NCBI GenBank assembly: GCA_026985075.1
Contig: JALSQX010000001.1
Span: 34,025 to 98,024 of the forward strand
Direction: 5' to 3'
Origin: Blastocatellia bacterium
GTDB lineage: Bacteria > Acidobacteriota > Blastocatellia > HR10 > J050
DNA: 64,000 nt
Positions 903-21,213 of this stretch are shown here, piece after piece. The notes beneath the pieces are model-generated. The model was not told the DNA's origin and did no database searches. It saw only the letters and a list, made by a program, of their open reading frames with translations. Positions within the stretch are counted from its first letter, which is position 1. Each line of letters starts with the position of its first letter. Position numbers and translations under genes: made by a program.

Positions 903-2201
903 ATGATGAATCGTCGTCGGTTCTTTCGCGCTCTGATGGCGCCGGCCGTTCTTCCTTTGGCCGGGAGAACGCGCCGCGCGGTCGCTTCCTCTCTGACCGC
1001 CGAGTCACAAGACGAGTGGCCGGCCCCCGACGATCCCCATTATTGGCAGTGGATTCGTCGGCAATTCCTCATCCCGCCGGATGAGGCCTTTTTCAACACC
1101 GGCACGCTGGGAGCGTGTCCGCGTCAGGTCGTCGATACGGTCACGCGACATATGCGGCGACTGGAGGAGACATTGGCTCATTGGGATTACAAGCCCGAGC
1201 ATCCCGATTGGTTCAGCGGGTATCGTCCGCAACTCGAATTGCGCAAGAAATTGGCCGAGGTCATACACGCGCATCCCGGCGAGATCGCGCTCACCCAGAA
1301 TGCGACCATGGGCATGAATTTCATGGCTCATGGACTGGACTTGCAGCCCGGCGATGAGGTGTTGAGCACCGATCAGGAGCACCCCGGTGGACGGTGCGGA
1401 TGGGAGTTGCGGGCCCATCGCGAGGGGATCATCTGGCGACCGCTGGAAATTCCCATTCCACCGCCCGATCCGGAAACGATCGTCAAGATCTTCGCTCAAG
1501 CGATCACTCCCCGGACGCGCGTCATCGCCATCGCTCACATCACCTCTCAGTTTGGCATCGTCATGCCCGTGCGACAGATTTGCGAGCTGGCGCGACCCCG
1601 CGGCATTCTGACCATCATCGACGGAGCCCAGGCCGTCGGTCAGTTGCACGTGAACGTCAAGGAGATCGGTTGCGATGCCTACTTCTCCAGTCCGCATAAA
1701 TGGTTGCTCGCTCCACCGGGCAACGGATTCTTGTACATTCGCCAGGAGAAGCTCAATGACGTATGGACGACATTGGCCAGCGGGCAGTGGAATAACTATC
1801 AAGCGGGCGCCTATCGGTTGATGCAATATGGGACCGGCAATCTCTCGTTGCTCAAAGGACTGGAAGCGGCCATCGACTTTCACATGCGCATCGGTCCCGA
1901 TCGCGTGCAGCGGCGGATCATCGGATTGGCCAATCGGTTGCGTCAGGGATTGCAGCAGATCGACGGCGTGACCATTCTCTCGCCCACCCATCCGGAGTTG
2001 GCCGGAGCGATGGTGACGTATCGCGTCGAAGGGATGACCGGGTCGCAATTACAGGATGAGTTGTGGAACCGGCGGAAAATTCGCGTTCGCAAGATGGGCG
2101 CGAAGAACAGCGTGCGCCAATCGGTGCATATCTATAACAGTCCGGAGGAGATCGACGCGACGCTGGAGATCGTTCGAGATCTGGCTGCCAGGCGGAAGTG
2201 A
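903..2201 (+). CDS. aminotransferase class V-fold PLP enzyme (isopenicillin-N epimerase-like) with Tat-like signal
   Basis: NRRRFFRAL N-terminus; DGAQAVGQLHVNVKEIGCDAYFSSPHKWLLAPPGNGFLYIR PLP-lysine region; RBS gaggag upstream. Confidence 0.88.
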   Translation: MMNRRRFFRALMAPAVLPLAGRTRRAVASSLTAESQDEWPAPDDPHYWQWIRRQFLIPPDEAFFNTGTLGACPRQVVDTVTRHMRRLEETLAHWDYKPEHPDWFSGYRPQLELRKKLAEVIHAHPGEIALTQNATMGMNFMAHGLDLQPGDEVLSTDQEHPGGRCGWELRAHREGIIWRPLEIPIPPPDPETIVKIFAQAITPRTRVIAIAHITSQFGIVMPVRQICELARPRGILTIIDGAQAVGQLHVNVKEIGCDAYFSSPHKWLLAPPGNGFLYIRQEKLNDVWTTLASGQWNNYQAGAYRLMQYGTGNLSLLKGLEAAIDFHMRIGPDRVQRRIIGLANRLRQGLQQIDGVTILSPTHPELAGAMVTYRVEGMTGSQLQDELWNRRKIRVRKMGAKNSVRQSVHIYNSPEEIDATLEIVRDLAARRK

Positions 2202-2351
2202 ATTCGTGCAGATGAAGCCTTGACGGGATGCGCGGTGAAAGGGAGGGGCTCGTTCGTCTCCATCCGGCGCATCGCCGGGGATCGCTCATGGGCGGCGAGT
2301 CCGCGGCGAGGAATGAAAGTGACGTCGCGCAAGATGCCGCCTTGCGTCACC

Positions 2352-2369
2352 CATCCTTGGTTGACGATG
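2352..2369 (+). repeat. 18-bp direct repeat, copy 1 (catccttggttgacgatg)
   Basis: Identical to 2419-2436, 67 bp apart. Confidence 0.85.
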
Positions 2370-2418
2370 AGGAAAGCGGCGTGCCCGGCATCAGTCAGGC
2401 GAAACATCTTACGCCGCT

Positions 2419-2436
2419 CATCCTTGGTTGACGATG
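2419..2436 (+). repeat. 18-bp direct repeat, copy 2, overlapping the putative -35 of the downstream gene
   Basis: Exact copy of 2352-2369. Confidence 0.85.
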
Positions 2437-2455
2437 CCCAACCTCGTTGTATGAT
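2428..2455 (+). promoter_or_regulatory. putative sigma70-type promoter TTGACG-N16-TATGAT
   Basis: Sequence match just upstream of ATG 2468. Confidence 0.45.
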
Positions 2456-2467
2456 GGTGATGGCGTC

Positions 2468-3532
2468 ATGATCACCGTATTGGGGGCTACCGGTTTCACG
2501 GGCCGGCTCGTCGTCGAGGAATTGCGACGGCGGCAATTACCCGTGCGACTGGCCGGACGGAACGTCGATAAGCTTGAAGCTGTGGTGGAGGCTCTCGGTG
2601 AACGGGTTCCCACCGTAGTCGTCGACGTCACGCGCCCGGAGACGCTGCCACTCGCATTGGAGGGATCGCGCGTGCTCATCAATTGTGTCGGTCCGTTCAC
2701 CGATTTAAGCGAACCGGTGGTCGCTGAGGCCATCCGTCAAGGCGTGCACTATCTGGACACCACGGGCGAACAAGCGTTCATCAAGCTCATTTTTGACCGC
2801 TACAGCGATCAGGCGAAGCGTCGAGGGGTCGTTGTGTCGCCGGGAGCCGCCTTCGAGTATGCTTTGGCCGATGCGGCCGCGGAAGTGGCTGGTCGCGAGT
2901 TGGAACCGTGCGAAGAGGTGATCATCGTGTATGCCCTCTCGGGATTCGGGGCGAGCCGAGGAACGAAAAAATCGGTGCTCCGAGTGGTGGCCAGCGAGGG
3001 GTATCTTTATCGGGAGGGGCGACTCGTTCGGGCCAGACTGGGAGCGGAGCGTCGGTCAGTCCGTATGCCCAGTGGCCGGAAGCTCGTCGCCCTCTCGTTC
3101 CCTGGCGGGGAAGTCATCCATGTACCTCGACACGTTCAGGCGCGGTCGGTCATCCCCATGATGGCATTCAGCTCCGGTCGAGCGCTGTTGCTCCCTCTCG
3201 GTCTGCCACTGTTGCGCGCGGCGATGGTCACGCCGTTGAGAGAGTGGATCTTTCGGCGTATTGAAGTGGGACCGGTCGGTCCCTCGCCTGAAGCACGGGC
3301 AGCTACGCGCTTCACGTTGCTTGTGGAGGCGCGCCGGGGCGAGGATCGCCGCGCCGTCATCGCCGAAGGATGCGATCCCTATGGCTTGACGGCGGTGGTG
3401 ATCGTGGCCTTGGCGGCTCATTTATTGGAGGAAGGACCGCGGGAGGTCGGCGCTCTCTCGCCGGCCATGGTTGCCGGTCCGGAGGCGATCGTCACGAGCA
3501 CGGGCGAAGCCGGCGTTCGCTGGTTGCGATGA
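2468..3532 (+). CDS. saccharopine dehydrogenase-like / trans-acting enoyl reductase family NAD(P)-binding protein
   Basis: MITVLGATGFTGRLVVEELRRRQLPVRLAGRNVDKLE Rossmann start; family architecture. Confidence 0.85.
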   Translation: MITVLGATGFTGRLVVEELRRRQLPVRLAGRNVDKLEAVVEALGERVPTVVVDVTRPETLPLALEGSRVLINCVGPFTDLSEPVVAEAIRQGVHYLDTTGEQAFIKLIFDRYSDQAKRRGVVVSPGAAFEYALADAAAEVAGRELEPCEEVIIVYALSGFGASRGTKKSVLRVVASEGYLYREGRLVRARLGAERRSVRMPSGRKLVALSFPGGEVIHVPRHVQARSVIPMMAFSSGRALLLPLGLPLLRAAMVTPLREWIFRRIEVGPVGPSPEARAATRFTLLVEARRGEDRRAVIAEGCDPYGLTAVVIVALAAHLLEEGPREVGALSPAMVAGPEAIVTSTGEAGVRWLR

Positions 3533-5655: not shown

Positions 5656-5863
5656 GCTCCAGCCAGCCCGGGGTGTTACGCTTCTAAATGATGAAGATAC
5701 AGACACATTCGCGGTGCCCTCGTGTCGCTCTCGGCGATGCCTCAAACGTTCTTCTGCTCAGATGGCGCGCAGAGTGCGGTTTTTTCGGTCGAGAGCAGGC
5801 GAGGTCTGTGGATGAGCGAGGGTTGTTTCGTGGTTAAAACCTTTTAAAGGAGGAGACTTGGTT

Positions 5864-7240
5864 ATGAAAAGAACAGTTCGCATGATCACTGCCTTGAGCT
5901 CTCTGGCCCTCTTGGCCCTGAGCAGCATTCCTCTTGGTGGTTCGCTGGCTCCGGCCAAGACGAGTGCCCAGTCGGCTGTTGCTGAGGTTGAGCCGAACGA
6001 TGATCCGCTGTCGGCTCAGGAGATTCCGTTCCCCGGACCGGGCGAAAAGGTTGAAGTTCAAGGGAGCGTAGCGGCTGGGGACGAGGGGAGCTTCAGCGAG
6101 GAGATGGAGACCTTCTTCTCATTCGCCGGCGGCGTTGGAACGCTCCACGACTGGTATGTGCTTGATCCCGATGCCCTCGGCAAGCAGGCGCTGGGCAATG
6201 GCCCCATTCCATTGAAGATCAGCGTGGGATGGGAAGGAGAAACCGACATCGACGTCTGGGTGGGCACGTTAGTGGATGATTTCCTCTTCTTCTTCGATGG
6301 ATTTAAGCTCCTCAGCGACGTTCGCATGGCCTCTTTGGCCAATCCCGAAATGTGGCCTCGCGGAGATGCAGCCAGCGAGTCCATCGCCCTTTATCTGCAA
6401 CCTCAGGGGGTCACTGACGAAGAGGGTAATCCCATTCCCAACGACGGTTTTGGTCGTAAACTGGTCGTCGCCATTCAGCATTTCGATGGGCCTCCGGCCG
6501 ACTACACGTTGACCATCGAGAACGGCGCCAGCGTCGCCAAACAGGATGTGAGCTTCAATAACGAACGTCACCAGATCGATGATGGTGGAATTACTGCCGG
6601 GTGGTTCAGTGGGCCTTCGGGGGGCATCGTCGTCAATTGCTATCGGCCCAGTCGATATCCGGCGACGTTGACGAGCATCGCTCATCCATTTGTGAATTTC
6701 AGCGACGTGCCCGATCCCACAGGGCAACCACTTCGCGTGATCGTCTTCACGGGCGAGGATGATGGTGATGGGCTTCCTGGACCGCCGCCACCGTTGTCCC
6801 AGGCCAACATCCTGTTCGATCAGGAAGTGCCTATTCCGGGGACGATTTCTCCTCAGGAGGGATCGCGATTCATTGGCCGAGTCAATGACATCACCATCGA
6901 TCCGCCGATCACCATCGAGTCGGGAGTCGTTTACGTCGCGTTACAGTGGCCCGATGCCCCGATCGAGGAGACGGGCGTCGCTCTCGCTCTGGATACCAGT
7001 CCCGTTCAGTACCTCCGCACGTTCCTTTCCACTGATGGGGGCGAGACGTGGGGGCGTCCGACCAGGACGGAAGATTTGTCCGGTGAAGATGTCTTCATGA
7101 ATGCCGATATCCGCGCACACTTCGAATTCGGTCCCGCGCCCGCCAGTGTGGTCAGATCGAAGGCCGAGCGGCGAAGCCATCGCGTGGTCAGAGCCGTGCT
7201 GTCCAGGCAACCGCTTTCCGTCGTGCCAATCAGTCGGTGA
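5864..7240 (+). CDS. hypothetical secreted protein
   Basis: Signal peptide-like N-terminus MKRTVRMITALSSLALLALSSIPLGG; RBS aaaggaggag. Confidence 0.75.
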   Translation: MKRTVRMITALSSLALLALSSIPLGGSLAPAKTSAQSAVAEVEPNDDPLSAQEIPFPGPGEKVEVQGSVAAGDEGSFSEEMETFFSFAGGVGTLHDWYVLDPDALGKQALGNGPIPLKISVGWEGETDIDVWVGTLVDDFLFFFDGFKLLSDVRMASLANPEMWPRGDAASESIALYLQPQGVTDEEGNPIPNDGFGRKLVVAIQHFDGPPADYTLTIENGASVAKQDVSFNNERHQIDDGGITAGWFSGPSGGIVVNCYRPSRYPATLTSIAHPFVNFSDVPDPTGQPLRVIVFTGEDDGDGLPGPPPPLSQANILFDQEVPIPGTISPQEGSRFIGRVNDITIDPPITIESGVVYVALQWPDAPIEETGVALALDTSPVQYLRTFLSTDGGETWGRPTRTEDLSGEDVFMNADIRAHFEFGPAPASVVRSKAERRSHRVVRAVLSRQPLSVVPISR

Positions 7241-7252
7241 TGGATCTTGGGT

Positions 7253-7286
7253 GGGATCATCCTCACCTGTTGGTGGGGATGATCCC
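7253..7286 (+). terminator. strong hairpin downstream of the secreted-protein gene
   Basis: GGGATCATCCTCACC-TGTT-GGTGGGGATGATCCC; stem about 14-15 bp, no clear poly-T. Confidence 0.6.
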
Positions 7287-7701
7287 CATTTGTGGTGAAG
7301 ACGGAGAGTTGCTCAGAGTATCTCTGATTTTCTGTCATGCGTGAAGAAATCGCGTTTTGGCTCAGGGTGTGTTCGGGGGGCGGGCTCTCTAGGTAGATAT
7401 CACGTTGTCGAGTCCGCGCGACCGTTTCTGGATATTTCCTCTCCCGCCGTCGGCTGAAGGCGAGTTCGACTCCTGAGGTCCACACCCATCATTCCACACC
7501 GCGTCTCATCTCCAATAGGCTGGCGAACTCGCGAGGAAATTCCTCACGGGCTGGCGTCCACGACCAATGACGAACATCGATGAGGTGGGAGGGCGCCATA
7601 TGTGCTCCGTGATTTGGCTGTCTATCTGGCGGAAGGGCCGAACTCCTGGGTGGAGGGGGGCAATATGTGCTCCACGATGGTGCCGTATTCCTGGAGGTCC
7701 T

Positions 7702-7793
7702 CTCAGAACGTCATCACCAGGTCGGCGGGAAGGAGTTCTTGATGGAGGAAATCGGTGAGCGTCATCGGGGCGTCGATTTCGGGGATGAGGTCT
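7702..7793 (-). pseudogene. duplicated 3' end of the DsrE-like gene (about 29 codons plus stop)
   Basis: 91/92 identity with 8651-8742, which is the 3' end of the intact DsrE-like CDS. Confidence 0.9.
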
Positions 7794-7845
7794 ATCATCT
7801 GTCGGTTGCCGTTACAGCCAGAATCGACGATAATAAAGATGATTT

Positions 7846-8112
7846 ATGTTGGAAAAACGGACGACATTGGAGCAGATTCTGAATCTTGTACGCCGATTGG
7901 ATTCGATTCACCTGGTCAAACTTCGCCAAGCGCTCGATCACCTGATGGCGCAAATTCCCGACCAGGAAAGAGAGCGTCTCTATCGGCAATTATTGAAAGA
8001 GCGTGGTTTGATGAGCAAAGTTGATCGTCCTTCCTCTCGACCGCGGGATCACCACCCAATACGAGTCAGCGGTAAGCCTCTCTCGGAAATGATTGTCGAG
8101 GAGCGGCGGTGA
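7846..8112 (+). CDS. putative type II antitoxin
   Basis: 88-aa ORF immediately upstream of PIN toxin; C-terminal PIRVSGKPLSEMIVEERR is antitoxin-like. Confidence 0.75.
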   Translation: MLEKRTTLEQILNLVRRLDSIHLVKLRQALDHLMAQIPDQERERLYRQLLKERGLMSKVDRPSSRPRDHHPIRVSGKPLSEMIVEERR

Positions 8113-8577
8113 GTGGCTGGTTATTACTTCGACAGTAGTGCTCTGGTTAAGCGTTATGCTTATGAATCAGGCACTGATTGGGTCCTTCGCGTCACAGATC
8201 CAACCTCGGACAACGAAATTGTAGTTGCTCGGATTGCAGGTGCGGAGGTGCTCGCCGCTATTGTTAGAAAACAGCGTGCTGGTGAGGTGAGCGGTATCCA
8301 AGCTCAGCAGGCAGTGGCCGATTTTGAAGCCGACTTCGAGACGGAATATGACGTCATTGAGGTCACACCAGCCGTCGTCATGCGAGCGATGGACTTGATC
8401 AAGCGCTATGGACTCCGGGGCTATGATAGTATTCAACTTGCTTGCGCCATGGAAGTGAATGAAGTGCGTCTCTTGGTCGGTCTTGCCTCACTCGTTTTCG
8501 TCAGCGCTGATGGGAGGTTGAATGAAGTGGCGCGGGCCGAGGGATTACCTGTTGAGGACCCCAGTGCTCAGGGATAG
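8113..8577 (+). CDS. PIN-domain toxin (VapC-like), GTG start
   Basis: YYFDSSALVKRY, E at the expected position, GLRGYDSIQLACAM and VSADGRLNEVARAEGL PIN motifs; directly abuts antitoxin stop. Confidence 0.88.
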   Translation: MAGYYFDSSALVKRYAYESGTDWVLRVTDPTSDNEIVVARIAGAEVLAAIVRKQRAGEVSGIQAQQAVADFEADFETEYDVIEVTPAVVMRAMDLIKRYGLRGYDSIQLACAMEVNEVRLLVGLASLVFVSADGRLNEVARAEGLPVEDPSAQG

Positions 8578-8650
8578 GGCTACCGCCGGGTTAACTTCAG
8601 GATTTCCCCATCCACAACTCATCGATATGGCAAGGGCTGACGAGGTTCTC

Positions 8651-8742
8651 CTCAGAACGTCATCACCAGGTCGGCGGGAAGGAGTTCTTGATGGAGGAAA
8701 TCGGTGAGCGTCATCGGGGCGTCAATTTCGGGGATGAGGTCT
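8651..8742 (-). repeat. 92-bp direct repeat, copy B (within the 3' end of the intact DsrE-like gene)
   Basis: Single mismatch to 7702-7793. Confidence 0.9.
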
Positions 8743-9071
8743 TCTTCTTTCAGGCCACACATGTACATCGATGACGAGCAGGCGAAGAATTTGACGTCGT
8801 GCCCGTGTTGCTTGGAGTCGCGCAGGAAGGTCTGGAGATTCTCAAAATCAGCCGCCTGCAAGCGCACGAGCGTCATCTCTTCCAGATCTCGATAGGCTTC
8901 AGAGAAGTTCGGGTGGTTGATGCGCTCTTTGGTCAGCTTGAGGATGGCCTCATCGCGGAAGAAGACGCGGACAGAAATCTCCGGTGAGGCCGTCAGGGCG
9001 CGAATGAGCGTGGCCACTTGAATCAGATTATTGAAACTTCCCCGGGAAACGATGATCGCCACTTTCTTCAC
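8652..9071 (-). CDS. DsrE/DsrF-like family protein, GTG start
   Basis: VKKVAIIVSRGSFNNLIQVATLIRALTASPEISVRVFFRDEA...FFACSSSMYMCGLKEEDL. Confidence 0.8.
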   Translation of the reverse strand: MKKVAIIVSRGSFNNLIQVATLIRALTASPEISVRVFFRDEAILKLTKERINHPNFSEAYRDLEEMTLVRLQAADFENLQTFLRDSKQHGHDVKFFACSSSMYMCGLKEEDLIPEIDAPMTLTDFLHQELLPADLVMTF

Positions 9072-18456: not shown

Positions 18457-19416
18457 ATGGCTACGTACCTGGTGACCGGGGGAGCGGGATTCATCGGATC
18501 GCACCTGGTCGAAGCCTTGGTGAATCGGGGAGAGCGCGTTCGCGTCTTGGATAATCTGAGCGAGGGGAAGATGGAGAATGTGGCCTCGGTGATCGATCGC
18601 ATCGAGTTCATGCGGGCCGATGTTCGTGATCCCGAGGCGGTGCGAGCGGCCGTCGAAGGCGTGGATTACGTCCTGCATCAGGCGGCACTGCGCTCGGTGC
18701 CTCGCTCGGTGGACGATCCGCTGTCCACCAACGACGTGAACATCACCGGGACGTTGCACCTGTTACGAGCCGCTCATCAGGCCGGTGTGAAGCGAGTGGT
18801 CTGTGCATCATCTTCATCAGTGTATGGTGGGAGCGGCGAAGCGCAGCAGTCCGAATCGCAGTTGCCCGCCCCTCTCTCTCCCTATGCGGTATCCAAGATC
18901 GCCGATGAATATTACTGCGCCGTGTTCACCAGAACGTATGGATTGGAGACGGTGAGTCTGCGGTACTTCAACGTGTTCGGTCCACGCCAGGACCCGGCAT
19001 CTGAGTATGCGGCGGTCATTCCCCGCTTCATCCTCGCCGCTCTGAACGATGAGCCGCTGGAGATCCACGGGGATGGATTGCAGTCGCGGGATTTCACCTA
19101 CGTAGATAATGTCGTCGAGTTCAATCTCCTGGCAGCGACGGCGCCCGATATTGCCGGCGAGGTGTTCAATGTCGGGTGTGGCCAGAGCTATCAGGTGCTC
19201 GAGATTAAGACCTATCTGGAGAAGATCCTGGGGAGATCATTGAAGTTCTATCATGCGCCGCCGCGAAAAGGCGACGCGCGATATACGTGCGCCGATATGA
19301 GCAAGGCCCGGCGGCTGCTGGGATACGAGCCGAAGATTCCGTTCGAAGATGGGTTGCGCCGAACGCTGGCTTATTTCCAACAAGAGATGCGTCGAGGGAC
19401 GGGTTCGACATCATGA
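18457..19416 (+). CDS. NAD-dependent epimerase (UDP-hexose 4-epimerase-like, WbpP/Gne type)
   Basis: YLVTGGAGFIGSHLVEALVNRGERVRVLDNLSEG; YAVSKIADEYYC. Confidence 0.88.
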   Translation: MATYLVTGGAGFIGSHLVEALVNRGERVRVLDNLSEGKMENVASVIDRIEFMRADVRDPEAVRAAVEGVDYVLHQAALRSVPRSVDDPLSTNDVNITGTLHLLRAAHQAGVKRVVCASSSSVYGGSGEAQQSESQLPAPLSPYAVSKIADEYYCAVFTRTYGLETVSLRYFNVFGPRQDPASEYAAVIPRFILAALNDEPLEIHGDGLQSRDFTYVDNVVEFNLLAATAPDIAGEVFNVGCGQSYQVLEIKTYLEKILGRSLKFYHAPPRKGDARYTCADMSKARRLLGYEPKIPFEDGLRRTLAYFQQEMRRGTGSTS

Positions 19417-20279
19417 TCGATCTTCACACCCACACGAGCATTTCCGATGGAACGCTTTCGCCGACCGAACTGGTTCGCGCCGCCAAGGAGAAGCATCTGG
19501 AGGCGGTGGCCGTGACCGATCATGATATTGTCGATGGACTGCCCGAAGCGCTGGCCGCCGGGCGAGAGGTCGGTCTTCTGGTCATTCCCGGCGTCGAAAT
19601 CAGCGCCGACAGCCGGGCCGGGTCAATGCACATATTGGGGTATTTCGTGGATTATCGCGACGTCTCATTCCGGCGCGCCCTTCAGGAATTGCGCCAGTAT
19701 CGGAATGAGCGCAATCCCAAGATCGTCGCTAAACTCAATCAACTGGGCCTGGCCCTCACCTACGAGGAAGTCAAAGCCAAAGCCGGTCGCGGAGCCGTAG
19801 GGCGTCCCCATTTCGCTCAAGTGCTCGTCGAGAAAGGATACGTGCGATCGACGCAGGAGGCGTTCGATAAATACCTCAAGGCGGGCGCGCCCGCCTATGT
19901 GGATAAAAAGCGCTTGGCGCCCGCCGAAGCCATCGATCTCATCCATCGAGCCGGCGGGCTCGCCGTGATGGCCCATCCGGTTCGGTTGAACGTGCGCGAC
20001 GAGCGCGATCTGGAGGCGCTCATCCGCGACGTCATTGATTGTGGCGTCGATGGGATTGAGGCCTACTATAGCGATCACAGTCGTGAGTTGACGCGCTGGT
20101 TGCTCGACATGGCGCGACGGTTCGATCTGCTCGTGTTTGGAGGGAGTGACTTTCATGGCGACCATAAGCCTCATATCGATCTCGGCGTGGGCCGAGGCGA
20201 TCTGGCCGTTCCCGTCGAGTTATTGAAGCCCATCGAACGGCGTTTCGGCAGGAGCCTCAGCGATGTCGATGGCTGGTGA
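19413..20279 (+). CDS. PHP-domain phosphoesterase (nucleoside 3',5'-bisphosphate phosphatase / TrpH-like)
   Basis: IDLHTHTSISDGTLSPTELVRAA...VTDHD...GVEIS; ATGA overlap. Confidence 0.85.
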   Translation: MIDLHTHTSISDGTLSPTELVRAAKEKHLEAVAVTDHDIVDGLPEALAAGREVGLLVIPGVEISADSRAGSMHILGYFVDYRDVSFRRALQELRQYRNERNPKIVAKLNQLGLALTYEEVKAKAGRGAVGRPHFAQVLVEKGYVRSTQEAFDKYLKAGAPAYVDKKRLAPAEAIDLIHRAGGLAVMAHPVRLNVRDERDLEALIRDVIDCGVDGIEAYYSDHSRELTRWLLDMARRFDLLVFGGSDFHGDHKPHIDLGVGRGDLAVPVELLKPIERRFGRSLSDVDGW

Positions 20280-20353
20280 GCGATTGAAAGCTCGCCGGGA
20301 ACAGGTCGCCGCTCGATTCAGCAGGTCGAGGACATCAGAACGATGCATGGAGG

Positions 20354-21103
20354 ATGAAACGTATGCCCGAAGGATTCACCGTGTGGTTCACCGGATTGCC
20401 CAGCTCGGGAAAGAGCACGTTAGCGCGCCTGCTGGAGCCGGTGATCCAGCAACGAGGATTACACGTTGAAGTATTCGATGGAGACGAAGTGCGGCAGCAC
20501 CTCTCTAAAGGATTGGGATTTTCCAAGGAGGATCGAGATGAGAATATTCGTCGCATCGCCTACGTCGCCGGATTGGTGACGCGCACCGGCGGTGTGGCCA
20601 TCACCTGTGCGATCTCGCCCTATCGAGCGCTTCGCCAGGAGGCGCGGCAGCGAATCGGACGGTTCGTCGAAGTGTTCGTTCACTGTCCAGTAGAGGAGTG
20701 CATCGAGCGGGATGTCAAAGGGCTCTACAAAAAGGCGCTCAGCGGTGAAATCCAGAATTTCACCGGCATCTCCGATCCCTATGAGGAGCCGGAGCATCCG
20801 GAGGTCGTGGTGGAGACGCATCGGGAATCGCCCGAAGAGAGTCTCTCCAAGATCGTGCGGCGCCTGGAGGAACTGGGCTATCTGCCGCCGGAGGGATTCG
20901 GTGGGCTGACGCCGGTCTCCGTGCCCACCTATCTCTATCGGGAGATCCAGCAGCGACTGGACCGAAGCCGGTTCCACGATGTCTCTCATTACGTGACGCA
21001 TCTGCTCGTCCAGGCGTTGGAGGATCTCGAAGAGATGCCCATCACCGATCAGCAACGGCAGCAGATTCTGGGACGATTGAGAGAGTTAGGATACGTGGAG
21101 TGA
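20354..21103 (+). CDS. cysC: adenylylsulfate kinase with C-terminal extension
   Basis: [17 protein letters not shown]-loop; [32 protein letters not shown]; extra tail after residue about 185. Confidence 0.9.
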
Positions 21104-21213
21104 GCGACGGGTGGAGAGTGCTCTTGGAGCGAGAGCGCGGCACTCGTTGTTGGTTGCTTCGAGCAGGGGAGCCGAGAAGGTCGTCATGCTCGTCCTGATG
21201 GAGGTTCATACTG

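Follow-up and report, generated by a model that had tools for sequence, protein, structure and literature searches.

Some integrative elements insert at the 3′ ends of genes and regenerate these ends. For restriction-modification genes, a process called insertion with long target duplication is said to have been described by Nobusato et al. 2000 (Gene 259:99) and by Furuta et al. 2010 (NAR 38:2428). Restriction-modification systems are reported to duplicate their target on insertion, over a long and variable stretch in the range of 100 bp (PMC3874152, PMC3031569). For toxin-antitoxin (TA) pairs, an excerpt of PMC7935541 describes in Microcystis aeruginosa PCC 7806 a ParDE-like TA pair next to MaOC1, flanked by 152-bp direct repeats. 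Our search of the open-licence literature yielded no paper in which TA pairs as such are described as inserting with long target duplication.

Here we analysed a dsrE-like gene whose 3′ end is duplicated around a TA pair, an arrangement that looks like an insertion with long target duplication carrying a TA cargo. It shares with the restriction-modification insertions a small addiction-type unit between target copies of about 100 bp, an empty site in a relative, the lack of a transposase or integrase of its own, a variable duplication length and the absence of a common target sequence among loci. However, the cargo here is a TA pair, of the PIN type at dsrE and of the HEPN-MNT type at one sibling locus, rather than restriction-modification, and the host belongs to an Acidobacteria lineage in which the duplication has outlasted speciation and its copies have been homogenised. 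Like the Microcystis pair, the type II pair follows closely on a gene and is enclosed by long identical direct repeats; unlike the repeat here, the Microcystis repeat begins 14 bp beyond the stop codon and includes an inverted repeat of 16 bp, and that excerpt neither derives it from the gene's 3′ end nor shows an empty site (PMC7935541). With integrative elements the locus has in common the order of intact gene, cargo and displaced 3′ tail, but it has no integrase, no attachment core common to the loci and a cargo of less than 1 kb.

In the window, which is the whole 64-kb stretch of DNA analysed, the dsrE locus carries a direct repeat pair of 92 bp and 98.9% identity, with one mismatch between copy A (7702–7793) and copy B (8651–8742) and a start-to-start spacing of 949 bp. 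No other pair of long, unique direct repeats exists in the window. As the remaining repeats of at least 45 bp are either internal repeats in repetitive genes or members of a short intergenic family, chance is excluded for the 92-bp pair. A weak similarity (GAGGT-CTC) extends about 10 bp leftward of both copies. Copy B forms the functional 3′ end of the intact dsrE-like gene on the minus strand (8652–9071, 139 aa; Pfam DsrE PF02635, E = 2.6e-11), the stop codon of which lies at 8652–8654; copy B thus comprises 29 codons and the stop. Copy A, likewise on the minus strand, is an orphan dsrE-like 3′ tail matched by residues 111–140 of the DsrE protein, and a search of the own genome with this protein gave only two matches, the intact gene and this 30-codon tail. 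In the reading developed below, copy B would be the gene-attached half of a target duplication and copy A the displaced half. Between them lie two genes only, both on the plus strand and neither an integrase: a presumed antitoxin gene (7846–8112, an ORF of 88 aa) and a PIN-domain toxin gene (8113–8577, 154 aa; Pfam PIN PF01850, E = 2.6e-7). The right end of the cargo is a spacer between the toxin gene and copy B (8578–8650), which is colinear with that of the sister species at 74% identity. The preliminary description, which had reported the repeats with their single mismatch and 949-bp unit, the gene-end nature of copy B, the orphan state of copy A and the PIN pair as the only cargo, is borne out on all these points. 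No tRNA that might have served as an insertion target is found anywhere in the window.

To the left of copy A, the intergenic stretch 7241–7701 shows hardly any conservation when the sister species are compared; it contains a diverged 49-bp direct repeat (7584–7632 and 7649–7697). The neighbouring 460-aa protein (5858–7240) has no match in Pfam or NCBIfam; it is 96.5% identical in the sister species, and a distant relative occupies the syntenic place in the outgroup G002.

The two cargo genes have the VapBC-type layout, in which a small gene lies directly upstream of a PIN-domain gene, and the pair is conserved in relatives. The 88-aa protein has no family in Pfam or NCBIfam, which sets it apart from the antitoxins of VapBC-like type II systems; we take it as the antitoxin because its relatives directly precede PIN genes at many loci in other genomes. 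The PIN toxin is 85% identical in the sister species, and a sequence search for relatives of solved structure found none. The pair is presumably an active TA system.

The congeneric sister species (G001, Acidobacteria MAG J050; contig RFHM01000385.1) shows the same gene order of dsrE, PIN, antitoxin, orphan dsrE tail and 460-aa gene. The two species are colinear across both junctions and across the toxin–dsrE spacer, which indicates that the insertion is older than the species split and makes independent insertion in both unlikely. The two genomes were assembled separately, arguing against an assembly error. The dsrE-like protein is 95% identical in the sister and 66% identical in G002, the next relative in the family, where dsrE lies in the same metF–Wzz neighbourhood without TA pair and without tail. 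Downstream of dsrE, G002 carries different genes; it therefore does not count as an exact empty site, and the left junction is uncheckable there. The gene is also present without the TA pair in G004–G009. No exact empty site was found at the dsrE locus, the left intergenic region being poorly conserved even in the sister. The preliminary description had stated that relatives with the same arrangement and no empty site would refute its reading as a mobilised or remnant element; this applies only in part, as the sister shares the arrangement but the outgroup is empty.

Comparing the four copies (A and B in both genomes) over 86 shared bp revealed that copies A and B differ at one of 86 sites within each genome, against six to eight in comparisons across genomes (P = 0.0017 by Fisher's test, sites being treated as independent). 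Given that the insertion predates the split, such near-identity within genomes means that each lineage has homogenised its copies. The simplest and most likely cause is gene conversion, although other events could lie behind it. Between the own genome and the sister, dS is 0.39 and 0.68 for the TA genes, 0.36 for dsrE outside the repeat and 0.22 for the 460-aa gene. The TA values are at least as high as that of dsrE, as expected of a pair present since the split.

We thus propose that a TA cassette of about 857 bp probably inserted at the dsrE 3′ end in the common ancestor of the sister species, duplicating about 92 bp of its target. A compact antitoxin/PIN cassette would have entered the end of the gene, its incoming fragment perhaps joined at staggered or replicating ends. 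The gene would have retained an intact 3′ end as copy B, and its old tail would have been stranded beyond the insert as copy A. Since then each lineage has homogenised its repeats, for which gene conversion is the simplest explanation. The repeats should equally be capable of recombining so as to remove the cassette cleanly, a loss against which addiction to the TA pair may select.

Whether this geometry recurs was surveyed at 60 other PIN loci of the class, including as much as some 10 kb of flank on either side, a locus being counted as bracketed if a direct repeat with a spacing of at most 1,900 bp surrounds the PIN gene. Eight of the 60 loci are bracketed by direct repeats 850–1,800 bp apart, in a survey that was not wholly blind, as L150 and L168 had been noticed beforehand. 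Placing the PIN gene at random within the same loci gave a mean of 1.46 and a maximum of 7 bracketed loci in 5,000 trials. According to gene maps and Pfam, one repeat copy at the bracketed loci is mostly the end of an intact neighbour gene. Gene ends of this kind belong to a uracil-DNA glycosylase gene (L168; repeat 81 bp, spacing 932 bp), a VWA-domain gene (L177; 109 bp), a PQQ-like gene (L183; 174 bp), a UbiD gene (L187), a DDAH/arginine-deiminase-like gene next to a PIN pair (L201 in G001:C146, 652–2098; 119 bp) and a gene without an assigned family (L173). Some loci do not fit: L187 is a tandem duplication of tail and TA, the repeats of L186 and L161 do not correspond to gene ends, L192 represents a larger gene duplication, and the repeat of L150 is a secA-internal piece. 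A wider unit (L176 in G075:C11, 9484–12416; repeat 127 bp, spacing 2,806 bp) is bracketed by the 5′ end of a CofH/MqnC-type (mqnE/mqnC-like) radical SAM gene. Its cargo consists of a PIN pair, a cytosine methylase and a protein with a NO VEIN C-terminal domain, and it is the only locus whose cargo also includes a cytosine methylase gene. Remnants of this insert occupy the same place in G077 and G056, while the relatives G144 and G069 have no insert, their mqnP–mqnE gaps being about 11 and 29 bp. The bias towards gene ends can be explained by selection alone, because a duplicated gene end spares the gene from the insert.

The VWA gene bears a TA pair at its 3′ end and an orphan tail in two genera (G078 and G056). 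In G056, the PIN gene is degenerate and the tail decayed; some of the insertions are therefore old. At L174 (G088:C14, 9811–11893), a TA pair lies directly before the 5′ end of the same VWA gene, and no repeat was found. At L178 (G122:C79, 6562–7333), an 80-bp direct repeat (98.8%) surrounds a single 137-aa ORF, with its right copy in an ORF at 7241–7639, possibly a non-TA case of the tail–cargo–tail geometry. In L104 (G000:C4:80001–96385), short repeats recur at regular intervals over a long array, with spacers that differ from one another; it resembles a large CRISPR array in which some spacer blocks are duplicated.

The preliminary description had called for a search for empty sites, and exact ones were found at two sibling loci, if not at dsrE itself, where G002 lacks both TA and tail but has another left flank. 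The DDAH-like locus of G001 maps to G000:C56 as two pieces (query 1–770 to 19040–19809, and query 1972–3395 to 19684–21106) overlapping by 126 bp; accordingly, one copy is joined to both flanks there, whereas G001 has two copies around the PIN pair. The insert lies near the end of the DDAH-like gene and replaced its last codons, and the original tail was stranded past the TA. The second locus (L085 in G000:C16, 9727–13031) holds a HEPN-MNT pair and other sequence, which may include a degenerate transposase. The insert directly follows a pyridine nucleotide-disulfide reductase gene, at whose 3′ end it is bracketed by target copies about 107 bp long. G001:C454 is an exact empty site for it, with a single copy. 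The first 60 bp or so of the two L085 copies are alike and jointly different from the empty site, suggesting partial conversion between them. Empty sites sought in congeners for L173 and L183 were not obtained, as the flanks failed to align across the repeat. An empty site can also be produced by clean deletion between repeats, and by itself does not distinguish insertion from deletion.

Exactly the same product would be yielded if a circular DNA, derived for instance from another strain, carried the TA pair together with a homologous dsrE tail and recombined with the resident tail by a RecA-mediated single crossover. About 92 bp of homology is probably enough for such a crossover, which could also spread an existing insertion among strains. 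Nevertheless, the donor TA must already adjoin the same gene, so a crossover cannot explain the first arrival at many unrelated genes. Moreover, the two DDAH-like copies show 5 differences over 119 sites and lie at similar distances from the empty-site sequence (16 and 13 of 119), so that neither looks foreign, though conversion could mask a foreign origin. Taken as the source of the dsrE arrangement, such a crossover appears improbable.

We consider site-specific integration very improbable. On this view, an integrative or mobilisable element entered at the dsrE 3′ end, which its integrase recognised as attachment site and regenerated, and the TA would be what remains of that element. The textbook geometry that led the preliminary description to this idea holds as far as it concerns an insertion that spares the gene and strands its tail, both TA and tail being absent from the outgroup, and the VWA 3′ end occupied in two genera could be a preferred site, although common descent explains it too. 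The attachment core and the integrase, in contrast, did not materialise. The cassette encodes no integrase, and a comparison of the repeat copies of nine loci revealed no common core, the longest shared words being 6–8 bp in all pairs except one (11 bp). Repeat lengths vary from about 70 to 194 bp among the loci, and one repeat is the 5′ end of a gene. A folded recombination site was also considered and rejected, as the dsrE-locus repeat shows no folding beyond that of its shuffled versions (z = −1.2 and −0.6).

Least probable is the older tandem duplication named in the preliminary description as a possible refutation, in which a TA pair originally neighbouring dsrE was duplicated together with the tail and the outer TA then decayed to leave tail–TA–tail: it has a precedent at the UbiD locus (L187 in G029:C117, 9962–11706), where tail, TA, tail and a degenerate second TA form an in-register tandem duplication of UbiD tail and TA offset by about 870 bp, but no trace of a decayed second TA exists left of copy A at the DNA or protein level in either species, and it does not predict empty sites with tail and both flanks joined without TA, which largely refutes it at the two loci that have them.

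The probable insertion at the dsrE 3′ end, together with similar scars around other TA pairs in related Acidobacteria, suggests that such pairs can settle at the end of a gene while leaving it unbroken, and need no integrase of their own to do so. A more general view, which we put forward only tentatively and regard as unlikely on balance, would be that TA pairs of several kinds (PIN and HEPN-MNT) are themselves mobile units that move by a shared process with target duplications of about 100 bp at gene ends, as proposed for restriction-modification genes, the repeats staying recombinationally active while the pair survives. The recurrence of insertion scars and exact empty sites around TA pairs in one bacterial class makes TA movement without a visible carrier testable. 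It also bears on how genomes tolerate insertions, suggesting that a gene survives the arrival of cargo at its end because that end is duplicated. Furthermore, the homogenised repeats provide a natural case in which addiction genes persist in a structure that ordinary recombination can delete.
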